Notes under the pieces: generated by a model
Seen by the model: the letters and a program-made list of their open reading frames with translations, nothing else
Database searches by the model: none
What the model was told of the DNA's origin: nothing
Shown: in pieces, positions 1 to 32,841 of the stretch
Position numbering within the stretch: the stretch's first letter is position 1
Layout: each line of letters begins with the position of its first letter
Made by a program: the position numbers and the translations under genes
Assembly (NCBI GenBank): GCA_947172415.1
Contig: OX359189.1
Location: 7,826,501-7,890,500, forward strand
Length of the DNA stretch: 64,000 nucleotides
Direction of reading: 5' to 3'
Source of the DNA: Chondrosia reniformis
Lineage: Eukaryota > Porifera > Demospongiae > Chondrillida > Chondrillidae

Positions 1-178
1 ATTCTTGATACAGCTTATCCACCCTTGCAACCTTATTATTCCAGTGCTAAAAATTTCACAAGGACACTTGTCCAAATGAGATCAATTTTGGTTGCATGGT
101 TATTCATTTTAATGAGCAACCATCAGTCACTGAAATTATATTGTCCTAAACCTGCTATAGACATGAGCATTTAAGTCA
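1..178. repeat. Left copy of a ~175-bp direct repeat (partner 2663-2838)
   Basis: This stretch is nearly identical to 2663-2838, with only a handful of substitutions by eye. The right copy lies in the intron just upstream (minus sense) of the second CTHRC1-domain exon. The left copy lies about 400 bp past the stop of the fourth. The pair marks a duplication about 2.66 kb long that carried whole CTHRC1-domain exons, and it suggests more such exons to the left of the window. No coding potential is seen. Confidence 0.85.
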
Positions 179-583
179 CTTAACTACTACTTGACACAAT
201 CTGAACCATATCACATTTGAGCCATGATACAGTTTGATGCTCGTGATCCAAATCTTCTGGGAAGGATGAAAGCGACTTTGTGTTTTGACGAAATTGTAAA
301 TAAAAATATTGAATTTTAGTACCAAAGAATCTTTGCTGAAATTGGTCAACAATCAACTGTTATTTTAAGCACTGCTATTTTTATTCTATTGTTCCACATT
401 AACAGGGCTGTATGCAGAACTTGGGACCAAAGGGGGCAAAATGAAAATTTTCAAAATGTATTAATTTGTACGTACATTTCAAATTATTATAACATCAGAT
501 ACCAGAAAAGAGATGAGCAAATGCATACAATCATGGTTTCAAAACTATAGAAAAAGATTTGCATTATTGGTGTACAACAACAG

Positions 584-1089
584 TTATATAATAGCTTCAT
601 CACAGTCGTCAGCCGGTGGAGGGATCTCTTCAATAATAAACGTTGACTTTGAGTTGTAACCAGTGATAACATCAAAAGTAGAATTGGTTCCGGGACAGAC
701 GTCAACAATCAGGTCAACTTTGAGGTCACCCGGACCCCACTGTGATCCTTCAGAGGGACCATAGCAGATACCGCTGATGGCAGCCGGGCGTCTGATATCA
801 AATATATCCAATAGTCTGCTACCTCTCAGGTCTTGCATAATAGCTCCGTCTATTGGCTCTGGAGTCTGACATTCTTCTCCATTGATTGTCAAGTACCACC
901 TCATGCAGCAATCCTCACACTGCTCCAGGGCGATGTTACCGTACCAAGAAGCCTTGATGACAGTCTCTGGCTTCTTCTTATTTAGTGTGCAGCTCATTAG
1001 TGGATTTCCGGTTTGATTTTGAAGATTATCTGGAATATTCATCTGACACTGTTTAACATTAGGCCAAAAGTTTCTTGCAGCAGCATTAA
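584..1089 (-). CDS. Terminal exon: CTHRC1 domain 4
   Basis: A single exon encodes a whole CTHRC1 domain and then a TAA stop. It enters in phase 1 after an ATGACAG acceptor. Visible marks are CEDCCMRWYLTINGEEC and FIIEEIPPP near the end. Unlike the exons for domains 1-3 it shows no good donor after the IIEE motif, so it is the natural last exon of the gene. Confidence 0.85.
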
Positions 1090-4000
1090 CTGTCATAGGA
1101 ATAATGAAAGGTCGGTTATTGTATGAAAAAATGGAGGACTAAAAAATTAAGTAGACTGTCTGCATTTTAAATGGTTCATCCATTACAAAACTGCATGCAT
1201 CCATCAAAAAGGTAAGTGTTCAACATGGTTAAAAGAACTACGTATTATATAGTTCTAATGTACAAATGATGTTATATAGGCATGTTTATTATGGGTGTTA
1301 AATAGCTAGTACAGCCCACTCACAAGTAGTAGGGATTTCCTCAATGGTCATGTGAGAAGTGGTGGCAAATCCAGTGTAAGCGTTGTAGGAGTCAATAAAT
1401 CCATCACACAATCCAACCTCAACATGCAGTTGATGTACACCATCAGCAATAGCACCAGAGCTAGTCTCCGAACATATGCCTGCAATGACTGAGGCCCGAT
1501 GAATGTTGATGTTAGATCCATTTTTAGTGTATATGACACCCTCGATGGGACCGGGGGAGGTACACTCCTCTCCATCAATAGTGATGAACCACCTCATGCA
1601 ACAGTCTGAACATTCTGTGATCCTCATGTTGCTGTTAAACGTGATCTTCAGATTAGTGGCAGCGCTTCTCTTTCTAATTTCACAGCCTGTGTCATTAATA
1701 CGACCCAGATCAGTGCCGTCATTGATGGCATCAAAAGCACAGTGGCTGTAATGAGGGTAGAAGACGTTAGGATCCGGATTGGTTGGAGTAAGGCCACCTG
1801 AGAATGTAACAATGAGAAAACAGCAATAACACAGAGCCCATAGCTATATAAAAGGAGTATTATTAGCACATACAATTAGAATAGAAATATCAAATTACTG
1901 ACTATATTTCCATTAGACTGAGCTGTATATTAAAGATGTTATAAAAGGTTATTAATAAGCACCTTCAGATATAGATCATTTAAGGTACCATATTGATGTT
2001 CCATCCACGAATCCACTTAGCTAAGTGGCACAAAATGGCACTTCTATTATTGGTTTTGTAGTATACATACTGTATAACTACGTACCTATATATATACATA
2101 GACAAACATACGTATGTCTCCGCTTAATTAACTTGCCAATAGGTATTTCCTCAACTATGAATCGTGAACTCTGATTAAAACCCGAGGCTCCATCAGCGAT
2201 TGGTGAACCATCGCAGTTCCCAACCTCCAGTTTCAACAATACATTTCCTTTGCCAATTGGACCACCACCGGCTTCAAAACAAACACCACTTAACGTAGTG
2301 GGGAAGAAGAGATTGAAGGATCTGGCGGCAGAGATGGTAGTCCTGACGTCTTCGTGAGCCGTGCATCTGGTCCCGTCAATAGTGATGTACCACTGGGTAC
2401 AGCAAGTGCTGCACCTCTGTTTCCTGAAGTTACCTTCCCAAGTGAACCTCAAAGCAGTATCGTCAGCTTTCTTGACAAAAGAGATATTTGCGATGTGACC
2501 CAAGTTCCTTTCCCTGTTTCTGCTCAGGTTTGGATAGGCAAACTGGCAGTAGTAAGGATTGTATACCTGTGGTGCTATGGGTGGCTTGGTAACAGGGGTT
2601 GTGTCAATGTAGGCTACAGAGAAGGAAAAAAAGTGAAAAATGTTGTCATCTGTACAAGTGAATTTTTGATACAGCTTATCCACCCTTGCAACCTTATTAT
2701 TCCAGTGCTAAAAATTTTACAAGGACACTTGTCCAAATGAGATCAATTTTGGTTGCATGGATATTCATTTTAATGAGCAACCATCAATCACTGAAATTAC
2801 ATTGTCCTAAACCTGCTATAGACATGAGCATTTAAGTCAGGCTCTATGCAGCTCTGATTAAGTTTTATCCTTGCTACCACACTCTTTATGAATGTAAATT
2901 TGTCAACTCACAAGGAACCACTTCTTCAATGATTATTCTCGATATAGTATTCCAGCCAGTGTAGGCATCATATACAAAGCCATCAAATCCAGGGCAGTCC
3001 TGTAGCATCAGCTGTACCCTGTTTAACCCAGCCGTCAGCTCCCTCTCACCAGCCTGGCGGCATATACCTGGACAAAACAAGCATATGACGTAAGCACAGG
3101 ATACAGGTATGTATGTACAGCTTATACCTGGATATACAGTACCATGGATAAAGGTACGTATGTAGAACTTATACCTGGACATAATAAACATACGTATGTA
3201 CAGGATACAGGTATGTAGAGCTTATAGTACCTGCACATACGACATATACAGGTATGTAGGTAGAGCTTATACCTGGATATACAGTACCATGGATAATGGT
3301 AGTTAGAACTTATACCTGGATATACAGTACCATGGATAATGGTAGTTAGAACTTATACCTGGATATATATTTATATAATAACTATGATATGCACCTACGT
3401 ATATAGTATAAATGGTCCTACTAATTTCATAAATTGAACGTTTCAACATGAAGGTCTTCATCAGCATTGCTGGGGATCAATAAAGCTAGGGCACTTAAAG
3501 TAAATATGCCATCCCAAGCCTAGCATTAATACATAAATATATTCACATATATTAGATATACGTATGTACGTACGTAGGTAGTATTGTTTGTACACAATTT
3601 AATTTAATTCTTGTCAATGTGTTCGGTGTTAATCAGTGAAGTAGAACATTTCAATTTTTATTTGTATAAATAAGACTTCTTTTAGATGTGTCACCTCTCA
3701 ACCTTTTAGCATTTTCTATGTACGTAGTGGTTTGAAGGTGAGAAGATGATACTTCCAAAAGATAAGTCTTATGCAGTTAGAAGAAATCCTTGCTAGCTAA
3801 AGGTTTATTCCCCCCAAAACATGGGACACAGCATTTATTCTGGGACAGTTGGCAACTATGCCACATAATCTTACCCGTAATGGAGTAGCTACACATTTTG
3901 AGTAGGTAATACATATAAATACATATATACGTACGTATATAAAGAGTTAGGGTTATTTTGCTTATCAAATACATATACGTATACTTGCTATATCAGTTAC

Positions 4001-7000
4001 TGAAAAATAAGACTTCTATTCACCTGTGAAGTGTCCATGTCTTAGTATGTGGTAATTGGAAGATTGATAGAGCACGTTATCAATGGGGGCAGGGTCGGTG
4101 CATTCCATTCCATTAATGAAGAACAGCCAGCGCATGCAGCAGATAGAACACCTCGTAATTCGCATGTTACCGTCCCATGTGATCCTTAGGAGTGTATCAT
4201 TCCTCACCTTTGAAATATTACAGCCCTGCACACAAGGATATCAACAACTAATGGTAATAAGTATAAATCACATATTACATACAAAAGTGAAATACGTAAA
4301 TATATGAATATGCAAAGTATAGTTTACAAAATATCATGTATAGTAATCTATTAATTACTACTTTTCCTTGGTATAGTATATTAATGGCTATCATAGTGAA
4401 TATATTATATGTATTATATACTGTAGCAATAATGCTTACTATAAAGGTATTATTGACAAGTAATTAAGGCATTACAACAATACTATGTATTAAATATACA
4501 TCAAATATTTCAGTTTCAAATTCTATCACTATATCCTACGTATATATACAGTATATTTGTCAGTTTGATAAGGAACCTTTTAGTGTATAGGCTACACAGA
4601 TACAGGTATCTCAACCAAGCAGAGAGGTCTATACTACACAGATATAGGTATCTCAACCAAGCAGAGAGGTCTATACTACACAGATACAGGTATCTCAACC
4701 AAGCAGGGAGGTCTATACTACACAGATATAGGTATCTCAACCAAGCAGGGAAGTCTATACTACACAAATATAGGTATCTCAACCAAGCAGGGAGGTCTAT
4801 ACTACACAGATACAGGTATCTCAACCAAGCAGGGAGGTCTACACTACACAGGTACAGGTATCTCTGGCTTACACTACACATGCCATATAGGTGCAGAAGG
4901 TATGCTGTATATATAGACTGGGTGGCCAAAATACTATAAAATTCAATTACTATTCTATCATGAGAAGGCCATTTTACAGGTTTCCAAGCCATACAAAGGC
5001 TACACCTTTTTAAAAATCTGTTTACACCAGTTTGGGTATTTCCTAATAGGTATTCAGAATCTTACTAGTTCACCTAAGGCTGACACATTATCATGTACAT
5101 TACTGTAATTGCTCTAGCCTATTATAAGTGTATTCAATTTGTTTTACACATACATAATTGAACAAGTTTGCAGAATCAATTCTGATATTAATAAACTACA
5201 TAATATGTAAAATGCATGCTATAAAAACAAGATTTTTACAATAGCTGTTTCAGAAAATTTAAAACGTTTTAAAAATTGGCAATTATAAAATTGTTGTTCA
5301 TTTATTCAGATATTCACCGTATAAGGTTTAGTGTTTACACTCACAGCTAAAAATCCATAATCTTTCTGGCTGTTCAGGTTGTCAAAGACACACTGGTTCC
5401 AAGACAATTTAGGGTCATCGCAAGTGCCGCCATCTCCAGTACAAACCCCCTGGGCCCCTCTATCCCCCTTCAGTCCCGGGTCTCCTTGGCCACCGGTCAG
5501 ACCCATGCTACCCTTTGCTCCATTGTCTCCCTTGCTTCCCCTAGCTCCCTTTGAACCTGCTCTACCAGCAGGTCCTACCAAACCGGGAGAACCGGGAGAA
5601 CCTTGTGGGCCGGGTGGTCCAGTACTACCATCTGCACCCTTTGCGCCTTTATTTCCACCTTGACCTGCGGCACCTCTTCCACCTACATGCATACGCAGAC
5701 AAAAAGGTGTCATTATCAGTCCAGCAGGGTATCTCAATTACATGCAGCCACTACAATGTAGAGCAAGTATCAGTTTACGGGTTTCACTGCTCGGATAAAC
5801 ACAATTGTTTCTCATTCAAAATAAATGTATAAAGAAAACAAATTGTGCAGAAACCAGTTAAAATTATATAGCTAAGGGCATATCAACTATATCTGTCAAC
5901 ATTCCACCCACACAACAAAATGAGAAACAAATTTCAACACAATTATACCATTAGTGGATATATATATATAGCAAGACATACAGTCACAAATTAATATCAA
6001 TATCTGACATTATTGTATGATACTATATTTAAACACACAAGCCTAAGACACATCACAGATGTGGATCACTATCAGAACGCTTCCGTGAAGTAATGAGTGG
6101 ATGTCTGGAAGGTTTGAGTTGCTCCTGTAAGTATATACTGAAGTAGCCAGTCAGCGTTACATACAATAGAAATTTCATAATTTCAATCAAATCACCAAAT
6201 AAGTACCGTATTATCTCTAATATACGTAAGCCCGGGGGCTTGTATTTTTTCAAATCCCTCTGAACTCAGGCTTTTATTGGAGACTGGGCTTATATTAGAG
6301 ATAATACGGTATATAGTACTGGATATAATATATACATATACGGTATACTATATTCAGTTTGGTTATAACTATTTGTGATAATCTGTTGAAGAAGATAGTC
6401 TTGTATGATTAAATTATCTGTCAGGCTCTAAGTGTGTCAAAGAATGCTTGCATATAATTAAGTGACAAATCCGGCATGACCTACCAGTTTCACCTTTCTG
6501 TCCTTGTTGACCCTGCAAGAGGAGAGGAGAAATGGAAATTGAACAAATAAAGCTACTGTACACAGAGGAAAGCTAATAATAACACATCTCAATTCCCTAT
6601 AGGCCTTTACTCGTAAGGAGATATAAGTATATGTAAGAAAATGTTGTGTTAGATTATTCAACTGATTCCATAAAGCCATACATGTCATGTTGTATCCATG
6701 CAGAATAGCAATTTCTGGTCAAAAAATATAGTCATAACAGACTACAGTATACAAAAGCATGTACAAATGATTACATGCAGTACACTAATAGAACTAGATA
6801 TGCTATGTCTTCGATGTAAACTGAATTTTATGTAAGCAGTCAATACCATGCAACCAATAGAATGGTAAACTTAGTACATTCGTTAGTTGTACACGCGTGC
6901 AGATCAATCTGTCGTATTATAACTGAAGCTAGCTCGACTGACTAGGTACCCTACCAGGACCTCTCAAACAAACCAAGAAGTGGAGGTACACACTTACCGG

Positions 7001-7301
7001 TTCGCCTTTCAATCCCGTCATGGTGGTGGGTCTGCCATTTTCGTCTACCGCTCGTACGTTCCCACCAGCTGAAGTCTCAAACACGATATCGCCAAGGGAC
7101 TTGATTCTTATACCATTACCATCCGTTAAGATTGCAGGCCTGACGGTGGAAGTGTGCGTACAATAAAACAGCTCGTTAATGAGTATCTATCGTTCCCGTA
7201 GCAGTGATACATGGATTAACTTACCCGTCAACTTCCTGCGATAGCGAATATTGTAATACTGTCAAGGTGACAATGAATGCCACACTAAACTTTACAAACA
7301 T
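584..7301 (-). CDS. CTHRC1-like secreted protein: signal peptide, collagen helix, four CTHRC1 domains
   Basis: Nine exons read on the minus strand: 7301-7225, 7139-6998, 6512-6485, 5682-5345, 4225-4024, 3067-2912, 2613-2137, 1797-1324, 1089-584. All junctions keep frame and total 2,400 nt, 799 residues. Residues 1-22 form a signal peptide (MFVKFSVAFIVTLTV...). Residues ~67-165 are Gly-X-Y collagen repeats. Four CTHRC1 C-terminal domains follow (~174-314, 315-473, 474-631, 632-799), recognised by cysteine blocks such as CSICCMRW and by the ending IIIEE. Human CTHRC1 has one such domain after a short collagen stretch. Domain 1 is split over three exons, while domains 2-4 are one exon each with phase-1 boundaries. 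The exon at 2613-2137 would need a GC donor (GCAAGT). Read-through would stop each of domains 1-3 soon after its donor, so alternative ends are possible. A tttatt (AATAAA on the minus strand) lies about 200 bp past the stop. Domain identity is secure; the nine-exon joining is inference. Confidence 0.88.
1324..1797 (-). CDS. Internal exon: CTHRC1 domain 3
   Basis: The exon is 474 nt, phase 1 at both ends, so it can be added or skipped without changing frame. The acceptor is pyrimidine-rich (TTCTCATTGTTACATTCTCAG) and the donor is GTGAGT. It encodes HYSHCAFDAINDGTDLG followed by CSDCCMRWFITIDGEEC and a terminal IEEIPTT. If the donor is not used, translation runs eight more residues to TAA at 1298. 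Confidence 0.82.
2137..2613 (-). CDS. Internal exon: CTHRC1 domain 2
   Basis: The exon is 477 nt, phase 1 to phase 1, after a very strong acceptor (TTTTTTTCCTTCTCTGTAG). It begins with a Thr/Pro-rich linker and then a CTHRC1 domain with CSTCCTQWYITIDGTRC and FIVEEIP. Downstream there is no GT donor at the position used by its sister exons, but GCAAGT sits exactly there, which would be a GC-AG intron. Unspliced, it would end about 20 residues later. Confidence 0.8.
3110..3365. repeat. Minisatellite of ~43-bp units near a splice acceptor
   Basis: Imperfect tandem copies contain tatacctggatatacagtac and ccatggata blocks. On the minus strand each copy holds CCAGGTATA, resembling the real 3' splice site of CTHRC1 exon 6 (TTTTGTCCAG then GTATATG at 3067). 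Confidence 0.75.
3366..4015. other. Intron of CTHRC1-like gene; hammerhead-like repeat fragment at 3445-3475
   Basis: No exon is seen here. A decayed copy of the dispersed family lies around 3437-3480 in minus orientation, with CTGATGA, a short stem and GAAACG. Several TACGTA-type microsatellite stretches are present. Confidence 0.5.
4593..4870. repeat. Minisatellite, 42-bp unit, ~6.5 copies
   Basis: The unit contains ggtatctcaaccaagcag and ggaggtctatact. Because 42 is a multiple of three, both strands stay open over most of it. These open frames are products of the repeat, not genes. It lies in the intron between CTHRC1 exons 4 and 5. Confidence 0.9.
6204..6311. mobile_element. MITE-like foldback element, 108 bp
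   Basis: Perfect 21-bp inverted ends at 6204-6224 and 6291-6311 begin TACCGTATTATCTC. The inner sequence also has opposed aagcccg and gggctt. The size and lack of coding content fit a non-autonomous DNA transposon. It lies in the CTHRC1 intron between exons 3 and 4. Confidence 0.8.
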
Positions 7302-32172: not shown

Positions 32173-32841
32173 ATGGCGCAATCGCAATCTTTAGCTGAAG
32201 GTGTGATTCCTTCAGAAGAAAAAAAGACAAGGGAATTAAAACAGATAGTTTATGATACTGTGGAGAACTTTGCTTCGAACGACCCAGATACGACTCTAGG
32301 TAAACTCATTTTTGACTCCACACAGGAGGCGAAAAAGGAGTCCAATACTGACGATCAAGATGAATCAATAAAGAATTGTGCAAACGAGTTAATTGTCATT
32401 GCCGAAGAGGTGGATGGTGTAGTGGATAAGTATTTGGACCAAATTGTAACTGAAATTCCAACGGAAAACGTACTTGATACTTTGAAAGATATATTTTCAA
32501 AATTGTCCAGTCTGGTGTTTAAAGCTGGAGTTACTCTGAGAAAGATCTGCGTTTTGCTATTGTTCGCATACAAACTTGTTAAAAAGTTTTTGAGAATGTT
32601 AAGAGGAATTTCGGAGAGAGTTTTGGGAAAGAAAGTCACTGAATTTATCATTCATTGTGCCAATGTCCTGGTTGCTGCCTTCCTAAAGTACAAGGTACTT
32701 GAATGGGTAAGATCAAATGGTGGATGGCAAAAGCTATTGCAACATGCATGGAAAAGGAGTGAATGGTCCTTATGGATCATTGTAGTAGGGGCATGTGCTG
32801 TGATAGTTGCTATTCTCTATCGCCAATTGCAAAAGACTTGA
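32173..32841 (+). CDS. Divergent BCL-2 family protein, BAX/BAK-like
   Basis: Uninterrupted 222-residue frame. BAX/BAK proteins permeabilise the outer mitochondrial membrane in apoptosis. BH2 is the clearest match: VLEWVRSNGGWQKLL (~175-189) corresponds to the WI-xxGGW block of BAX and BAK. It is followed by a C-terminal membrane anchor (~199-216, LWIIVVGACAVIVAILY) and a short basic tail. BH1 is divergent: GVTLRKICVLLLFAYKLV (~119-136) keeps the hydrophobic helix but lacks the NWGR motif. A BH3-like LIVIAEEVD (~73-81) aligns with the LxxxGDE core, with Ala for Gly and Glu for Asp. Spacing of BH3, BH1, BH2 and anchor fits BAX. No intron inside the coding region. AATAAA at 32935-32940 is a likely poly(A) signal. 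A pro-survival role cannot be excluded from sequence. Confidence 0.8.
   Translation: MAQSQSLAEGVIPSEEKKTRELKQIVYDTVENFASNDPDTTLGKLIFDSTQEAKKESNTDDQDESIKNCANELIVIAEEVDGVVDKYLDQIVTEIPTENVLDTLKDIFSKLSSLVFKAGVTLRKICVLLLFAYKLVKKFLRMLRGISERVLGKKVTEFIIHCANVLVAAFLKYKVLEWVRSNGGWQKLLQHAWKRSEWSLWIIVVGACAVIVAILYRQLQKT

Follow-up and report, generated by a model that had tools for sequence, protein, structure and literature searches.

A sponge gene that probably encodes a collagen-stem protein with four tandem CTHRC1 domains, and duplicated copies of its three-domain tail

The DNA considered here is a stretch of 64,000 nucleotides from the sponge Chondrosia reniformis (contig OX359189.1, here C1; C1:7826501-7890500). 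We refer to this whole stretch as the window and use its positions throughout, whereas copies of the gene's parts are located on C1. On the minus strand of the window lie nine exons of a CTHRC1 gene (0, 1, 2 and E1 to E6; Table 1) that can be chained into 2400 nt, or 799 codons and a stop, with the sole stop at the last codon; the 800 codons given in a preliminary description of this DNA agree with this length once the stop is counted. We infer that the nine exons are joined into one message. E3, E4, and E5 measure 156, 477, and 474 nt, are all divisible by three, and have phase 1 at both ends, while E6, likewise entered in phase 1, terminates with the stop codon TAA, so that the chaining proposed earlier for these four exons agrees in lengths, phases, and ending.

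All four domains of the predicted protein match the Pfam family PF25815 (CTHRC1_C; cut-off 27 bits), with E values of 2e-33, 6.7e-24, 1.4e-32, and 1.7e-26 and scores of 116, 85, 113, and 94 bits for domains 1 to 4, domain 1 having been scanned with its exons joined. The stem matches PF01391 (Collagen, E 7.6e-12) and holds 31 uninterrupted Gly-X-Y triplets before GVC (a regular expression gives 32, GVC included), and the N-terminus is hydrophobic as judged by eye. Domain 1 is encoded over three exons and domains 2-4 on one exon each. Thus, the earlier placement of four domains within 584..3067 stands in the number of PF25815 domains but not in the extent of the first, which begins upstream in 5682-5345 and, being split over E1-E3, is not a single phase-1 module as are E4 and E5 (phase 1 to 1) and, at its start, E6. 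By hand count, domains 1, 3, and 4 have eight core cysteines and domain 2 has seven. Domain 3 is 42% identical to domain 1, 33% to domain 2, and 34% to domain 4, and at such identities the internal domain duplications are probably old. A tree of the four domains reached 48% bootstrap, and we therefore make no claim on the order in which they arose.

Table 1. Exons of the CTHRC1 gene and associated features in the window.
Feature	Position	Strand	Remarks
Exon 0, start codon ATG with hydrophobic N-terminus MFVKFSVAFIVTLTVLQYSLSQEVDG	7225..7301	-	phase 0 to 2; found nowhere else in the genome
Exon 1, N-terminal region and first Gly-X-Y triplets	6998..7139	-	phase 2 to 0
Exon 2, 28-nt collagen exon	6485..6512	-	phase 0 to 1
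Exon E1, most of collagen stem and start of CTHRC1 domain 1	5345..5682	-	phase 1 to 0
Exon E2, core of CTHRC1 domain 1	4024..4225	-	phase 0 to 1
Exon E3, end of CTHRC1 domain 1	2912..3067	-	phase 1 to 1; also present in copy C
Exon E4, CTHRC1 domain 2	2137..2613	-	phase 1 to 1; lacks methionine codons; seven cysteines
GC splice donor following E4; copies B and C have GT	2135..2136	-	comparison of copies
Exon E5, CTHRC1 domain 3	1324..1797	-	phase 1 to 1
Exon E6, CTHRC1 domain 4	584..1089	-	enters in phase 1; stop TAA at 586-584
3' flank of ~130 bp common to A and B, end of tandemly duplicated unit	453..583	-	
Start of tandem copy B, intron-3 sequence preceding E4 of B	1..178	-	rest of B outside the window

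A search of the genome (117,379,552 bases, 15 contigs) for the PF25815 family scored each of its 13 candidates and yielded 11 matches, every one of them at this locus; 14 control genomes searched in the same way gave no match. Exon-level comparison sorts the matches into three tails, A, B, and C, behind one stem. Copy A is the stem-bearing one in the window. Outside it, copy B (E4-E6, C1:7826453-7824404) follows directly downstream of A, and copy C (E3-E6, C1:7793275-7790781) lies ~36 kb off. A and B share a ~2.4-kb unit that runs from intron 3 to ~130 bp beyond the stop, and C and B share ~2.1 kb more of downstream flank. B is intact in its three exons and their splice sites. Copy C has a 4-bp insertion in E4 that shifts the frame, lacks the stem and E2, and begins inside an intron-2 repeat; its E3 differs from that of A by no nonsynonymous and two synonymous changes. 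B is probably not an uncollapsed haplotype, as both its tandem place and its 94.8% identity to A argue against this.

Plus-strand frames in the flank of B and C are similar in DNA to exons elsewhere in the cluster to which they belong; of those cluster exons, one matches fibronectin III (FN3) in Pfam above the cut-off and one gives only a weak immunoglobulin (Ig) match, the flank frames themselves being known by DNA similarity. Hence the CTHRC1 tails are placed tail to tail with receptor-like genes, and segmental duplication has copied the two together. The cluster, at C1:7766501-7824007 (loci L009-L014), consists of duplicated receptor-like exons on both strands. Among four of its exons scanned, fibronectin III passes in two, the third passes only the interferon-receptor FN3 model, and the fourth has a weak Ig match; one frame in the cluster has a transmembrane-like stretch.

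The copies also bear on the exon edges. The donor after E4 reads GCAAGT in A and GTAAGT at the identical place in B and C, and the boundary of E4 is supported because both other copies have GT there; the GC donor of A is probably the one that changed among the three. Across the three exons E4-E6 (1457 nt) A and B show no indel, whereas there are 42 gap columns in intron 4 and 18 in intron 5, which provides comparative support for the exon edges. Upstream, the intron between E1 and E2 contains a 42-bp tandem repeat of 6.5 copies (window 4592-4864).

Could E4, E5, and E6 instead be independent genes of one domain apiece, with a promoter and a start for each? Their open frames do run 16-32 codons 5' of their acceptors in A, and E6 has an ATG at codon -2. 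However, the open frame of E4 contains no methionine codon in either A or B, so that E4 is not a separately started gene; E5 has no methionine before codon 57, in mid-domain; and the one ATG of E6 is not followed by a hydrophobic leader. The acceptors of all three exons are clean, and the junctions are all in phase 1. In addition, a genome search with stem exon E1, in which 150 of 406 candidates were scored, returned no second stem: there was one full match, and the 91 others, which align with portions of the collagen region and do not exceed 56% identity, look like generic collagens. The start exons 0 and 1 matched nothing in the genome besides this gene (both of the two candidates scored), and no remains of a second stem were found in 124 kb searched at a relaxed threshold. 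We regard the separate-gene explanation as so improbable as to be nearly negligible. Phase, splice sites, Pfam matches, the finding that neither E4 nor E5 has an internal start, and a stem for which no second copy was found in the genome together give good support to the claim of four tandem domains, one stem, and one message.

It had also been suggested that each of the first three domains, by reading on past its donor to a nearby stop, could provide an alternative last exon, which would give four different tails. Stops indeed come soon, after 8, 19, and 8 codons past E3, E4, and E5, and an AATAAA close behind the E5 stop is kept in all three copies. Such distances are ordinary, however, as the median distance to a stop within these introns is 9 codons, and the copies disagree in the E4 tail (19 codons in A, 27 in B, and 35 in C). 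The short E3 and E5 tails do agree among copies, yet with introns 3 and 5 at 93-97% identity such agreement is to be expected in any case. Real alternative last exons of this kind are thus very unlikely.

Members of the C1q/TNF superfamily share a ten-stranded beta-sandwich jelly roll and form trimers. E5 (domain 3) is predicted to be all-beta, and comparison of its modeled fold points, with moderate confidence, to a TNF/C1q-like structure; a C1q/TNF-like fold has at most moderate support. A sequence search of solved structures gave only two matches, taken as chance (E 0.54 and 0.81), and a profile search gave none. Weighing against the jelly-roll assignment, the fold model has a mean predicted local distance difference test (pLDDT) score of 63.5, was built from nine sequences, and has 34 of 157 residues below 50; moreover, the 50 rows of the fold comparison include 13 beta proteins of other kinds and do not include C1q.

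Taken together, we think it likely that the locus holds one gene for a secreted collagen-stem protein that carries four CTHRC1 domains of C1q/TNF jelly-roll type in tandem. In such a protein, the collagen stem would trimerize the chains, and the trimer would carry twelve heads rather than three, which may raise its avidity for binding partners. By analogy with vertebrate CTHRC1, the protein may be secreted, assemble as a trimer, and act in the matrix or in Wnt-type signaling.

The three tails allow selection to be compared among copies, by counting the effect over E4-E6 of substitutions private to one copy (the E4 of C compared with its extra bases set aside). Nonsynonymous and synonymous private changes number 7 and 13 in A, 4 and 6 in B, and 7 and 15 in C. 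Under neutrality, 71-78% of the changes would be expected to be nonsynonymous, the value varying with kappa, and the resulting P values are <0.001 in A, 0.01-0.04 in B, and <2e-4 in C. On the C branch, E4 has 2 nonsynonymous changes among 11 (P 3e-4). With site numbers set by hand, nonsynonymous rates in A, B, and C are ~6-, 4-, and 5-fold lower than at noncoding sites (894 aligned, from the same copies) and ~6-, 5-, and 7-fold lower than at synonymous sites. Synonymous and noncoding rates are 0.041 vs 0.037 in A and 0.019 vs 0.016 in B, and agree more poorly in C (0.048 vs 0.030). These patterns indicate that tails B and C have been coding and under selection for most of their separate history. 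E6 on the C branch is barely constrained by itself (P 0.049). Private changes are unevenly placed along the copies, with A having none at 224 sites in intron 3 and 26 at 328 sites in intron 4, and conversion between copies may therefore have mixed their histories. As to where the amino-acid changes fall, E6 holds 6 of 7 in A and 3 of 4 in B, but 2 of 7 in C; in A and B this outermost head may be under relaxed or diversifying selection, the two being indistinguishable. Between E6 of A and E6 of B there are 9 nonsynonymous nucleotide differences.

How might tail B be translated? As its junctions are in phase 1 and it is intact but has no start of its own, the simplest route is the stem of A, and it is tempting to speculate that B is spliced to this stem as an alternative tail. 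We regard this as plausible, though slightly less so than the relic explanation discussed below, and grade it apart from the four-domain gene itself; several observations count against it. B has only 10 private changes, and its single exons, with 2, 3, and 5, have too few for significance; taken by itself, E6 shows no significant constraint in either A (6 of 11 changes nonsynonymous, P 0.15) or B (3 of 5 changes, P 0.41). Furthermore, C is constrained although it is frameshifted and stemless, so that constraint is no proof of present splicing to the stem and may date from the time of a complete gene.

This last point leads to another explanation, namely that B and C are relics of complete four-domain genes that recently lost their stems and are now unexpressed or dying, with A alone making protein. 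Copy C, with no stem, no E2, a start in an intron-2 repeat, a 4-bp frameshift, and yet a constrained branch, looks as a recently broken gene should; B likewise has no start; and both stand tail to tail with Ig/FN3-like exons that are duplicated too, so that the copying was by segmental duplication. On the other hand, B has kept its three exons and splice sites intact, and neither the 124-kb nor the genome search revealed a trace of a second stem. In addition, a rough estimate puts the neutral share of separate history at no more than ~38% for B and ~18% for C (95% bounds), where A's rate represents constraint and the neutral rates are mid-range values chosen by hand. We consider the relic explanation quite plausible, although just short of probable.

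A bolder and, in our view, unlikely extension of alternative splicing to the A stem is that the stem and domain 1 serve exchangeable three-domain cassettes (A or B, formerly perhaps C) spliced from E3. With its predicted jelly-roll domains numbering exactly three, each cassette could fold as a pseudo-trimer within the chain, while domain 1 trimerizes between chains. If so, the stem would bear three complete, lopsided heads whose identity could be switched by a change of cassette.

Apart from the CTHRC1 gene, much of the window is taken up by a satellite array of 169-bp units, ~33.6 kb long, which extends from window 33166-64000 on to ~C1:7893232 and has interruptions near 48.7-49.8 kb and 57.1-58.7 kb; the uniformly low G+C of that region and its lack of frames are due to this array. 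At the edge of the satellite lies a single plus-strand frame of 222 codons (window 32173-32841) that matches Bcl-2 in Pfam (E 1e-7, 32.8 bits; cut-off 31.4) and has a hydrophobic C-terminus. Head to head with the CTHRC1 gene, at window ~7493 on the plus strand, an acidic-rich frame, reminiscent of LEO1, starts ~190 bp from the CTHRC1 start codon; one frame downstream of it gave no match in a Pfam scan.

CTHRC1 proteins are known as a secreted matrix family linked to Wnt/planar cell polarity signaling, in which a collagen repeat is joined to a Cthrc1 C-terminal domain, the general scheme being one head per chain (Leclere et al., 2020; PMC7058181). The preliminary description's statement that known members have one such domain agrees with that general scheme. 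The protein predicted here has the hydrophobic start, short collagen stretch, and CTHRC1 C-terminal domain of the family and, judged by its sequence, falls under the published family definition, but with four C-terminal domains instead of one it is a variant architecture. Unlike in the family, domains 2-4 are single exons entered in phase 1. According to the same article, an intron is conserved within the 5' part of the C-terminal domain; in our gene, domain 1 is interrupted in that part by an intron (FLA|GCN) that may correspond to it, and domains 2-4 have none. It also describes lineage-specific tandem duplications of whole CTHRC1 genes in cnidarians, whereas we found one stem-bearing gene with duplicated tail cassettes, and it reports the family lost from the sponge Amphimedon. 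When the four-domain alignment was used to scan bacterial and viral contigs, there were 48 and 53 pattern matches, respectively, of which none was confirmed, an absence limited to these scans since CTHRC1 domains have been reported in bacterial metagenomes (PMC7058181).

No multi-head CTHRC1 protein was found in open-access literature on CTHRC1 (sponges, Porifera, Amphimedon, structure), as judged by titles and abstract openings, although such proteins may already be annotated in animal databases. Two further articles, which mention a sea anemone CTHRC1 and the proposal that CTHRC1 is a ligand of GPR180, say nothing of multiple heads in the parts available (PMC6626399; PMC12716839). The nearest parallel is found in invertebrate C1q-domain proteins, in which heads are duplicated within the chain, two in AbC1qDC1 and three in CfC1qDC-2 and HcC1qDC5, and have been linked to valency and avidity (PMC10672478). 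Our protein likewise has several heads within one chain, but these are CTHRC1_C by sequence, number four, and stand behind a collagen stem. Other TNF-like or collagen-like heads of known structure, namely the BC2L-C N-domain (2wq4), PLTL (9ib7), EDA-A1 (1rj7), and BclA (1wck), have 6-17% sequence identity, and a shared fold is silent on function. A sponge with a four-head CTHRC1 gene, the only one found here, whose tail has been duplicated and appears to be under selection, would mean that the CTHRC1 head can be multiplied, and offers a case in which to test how proteins with a collagen stem acquire valency and perhaps also ends that can be exchanged.
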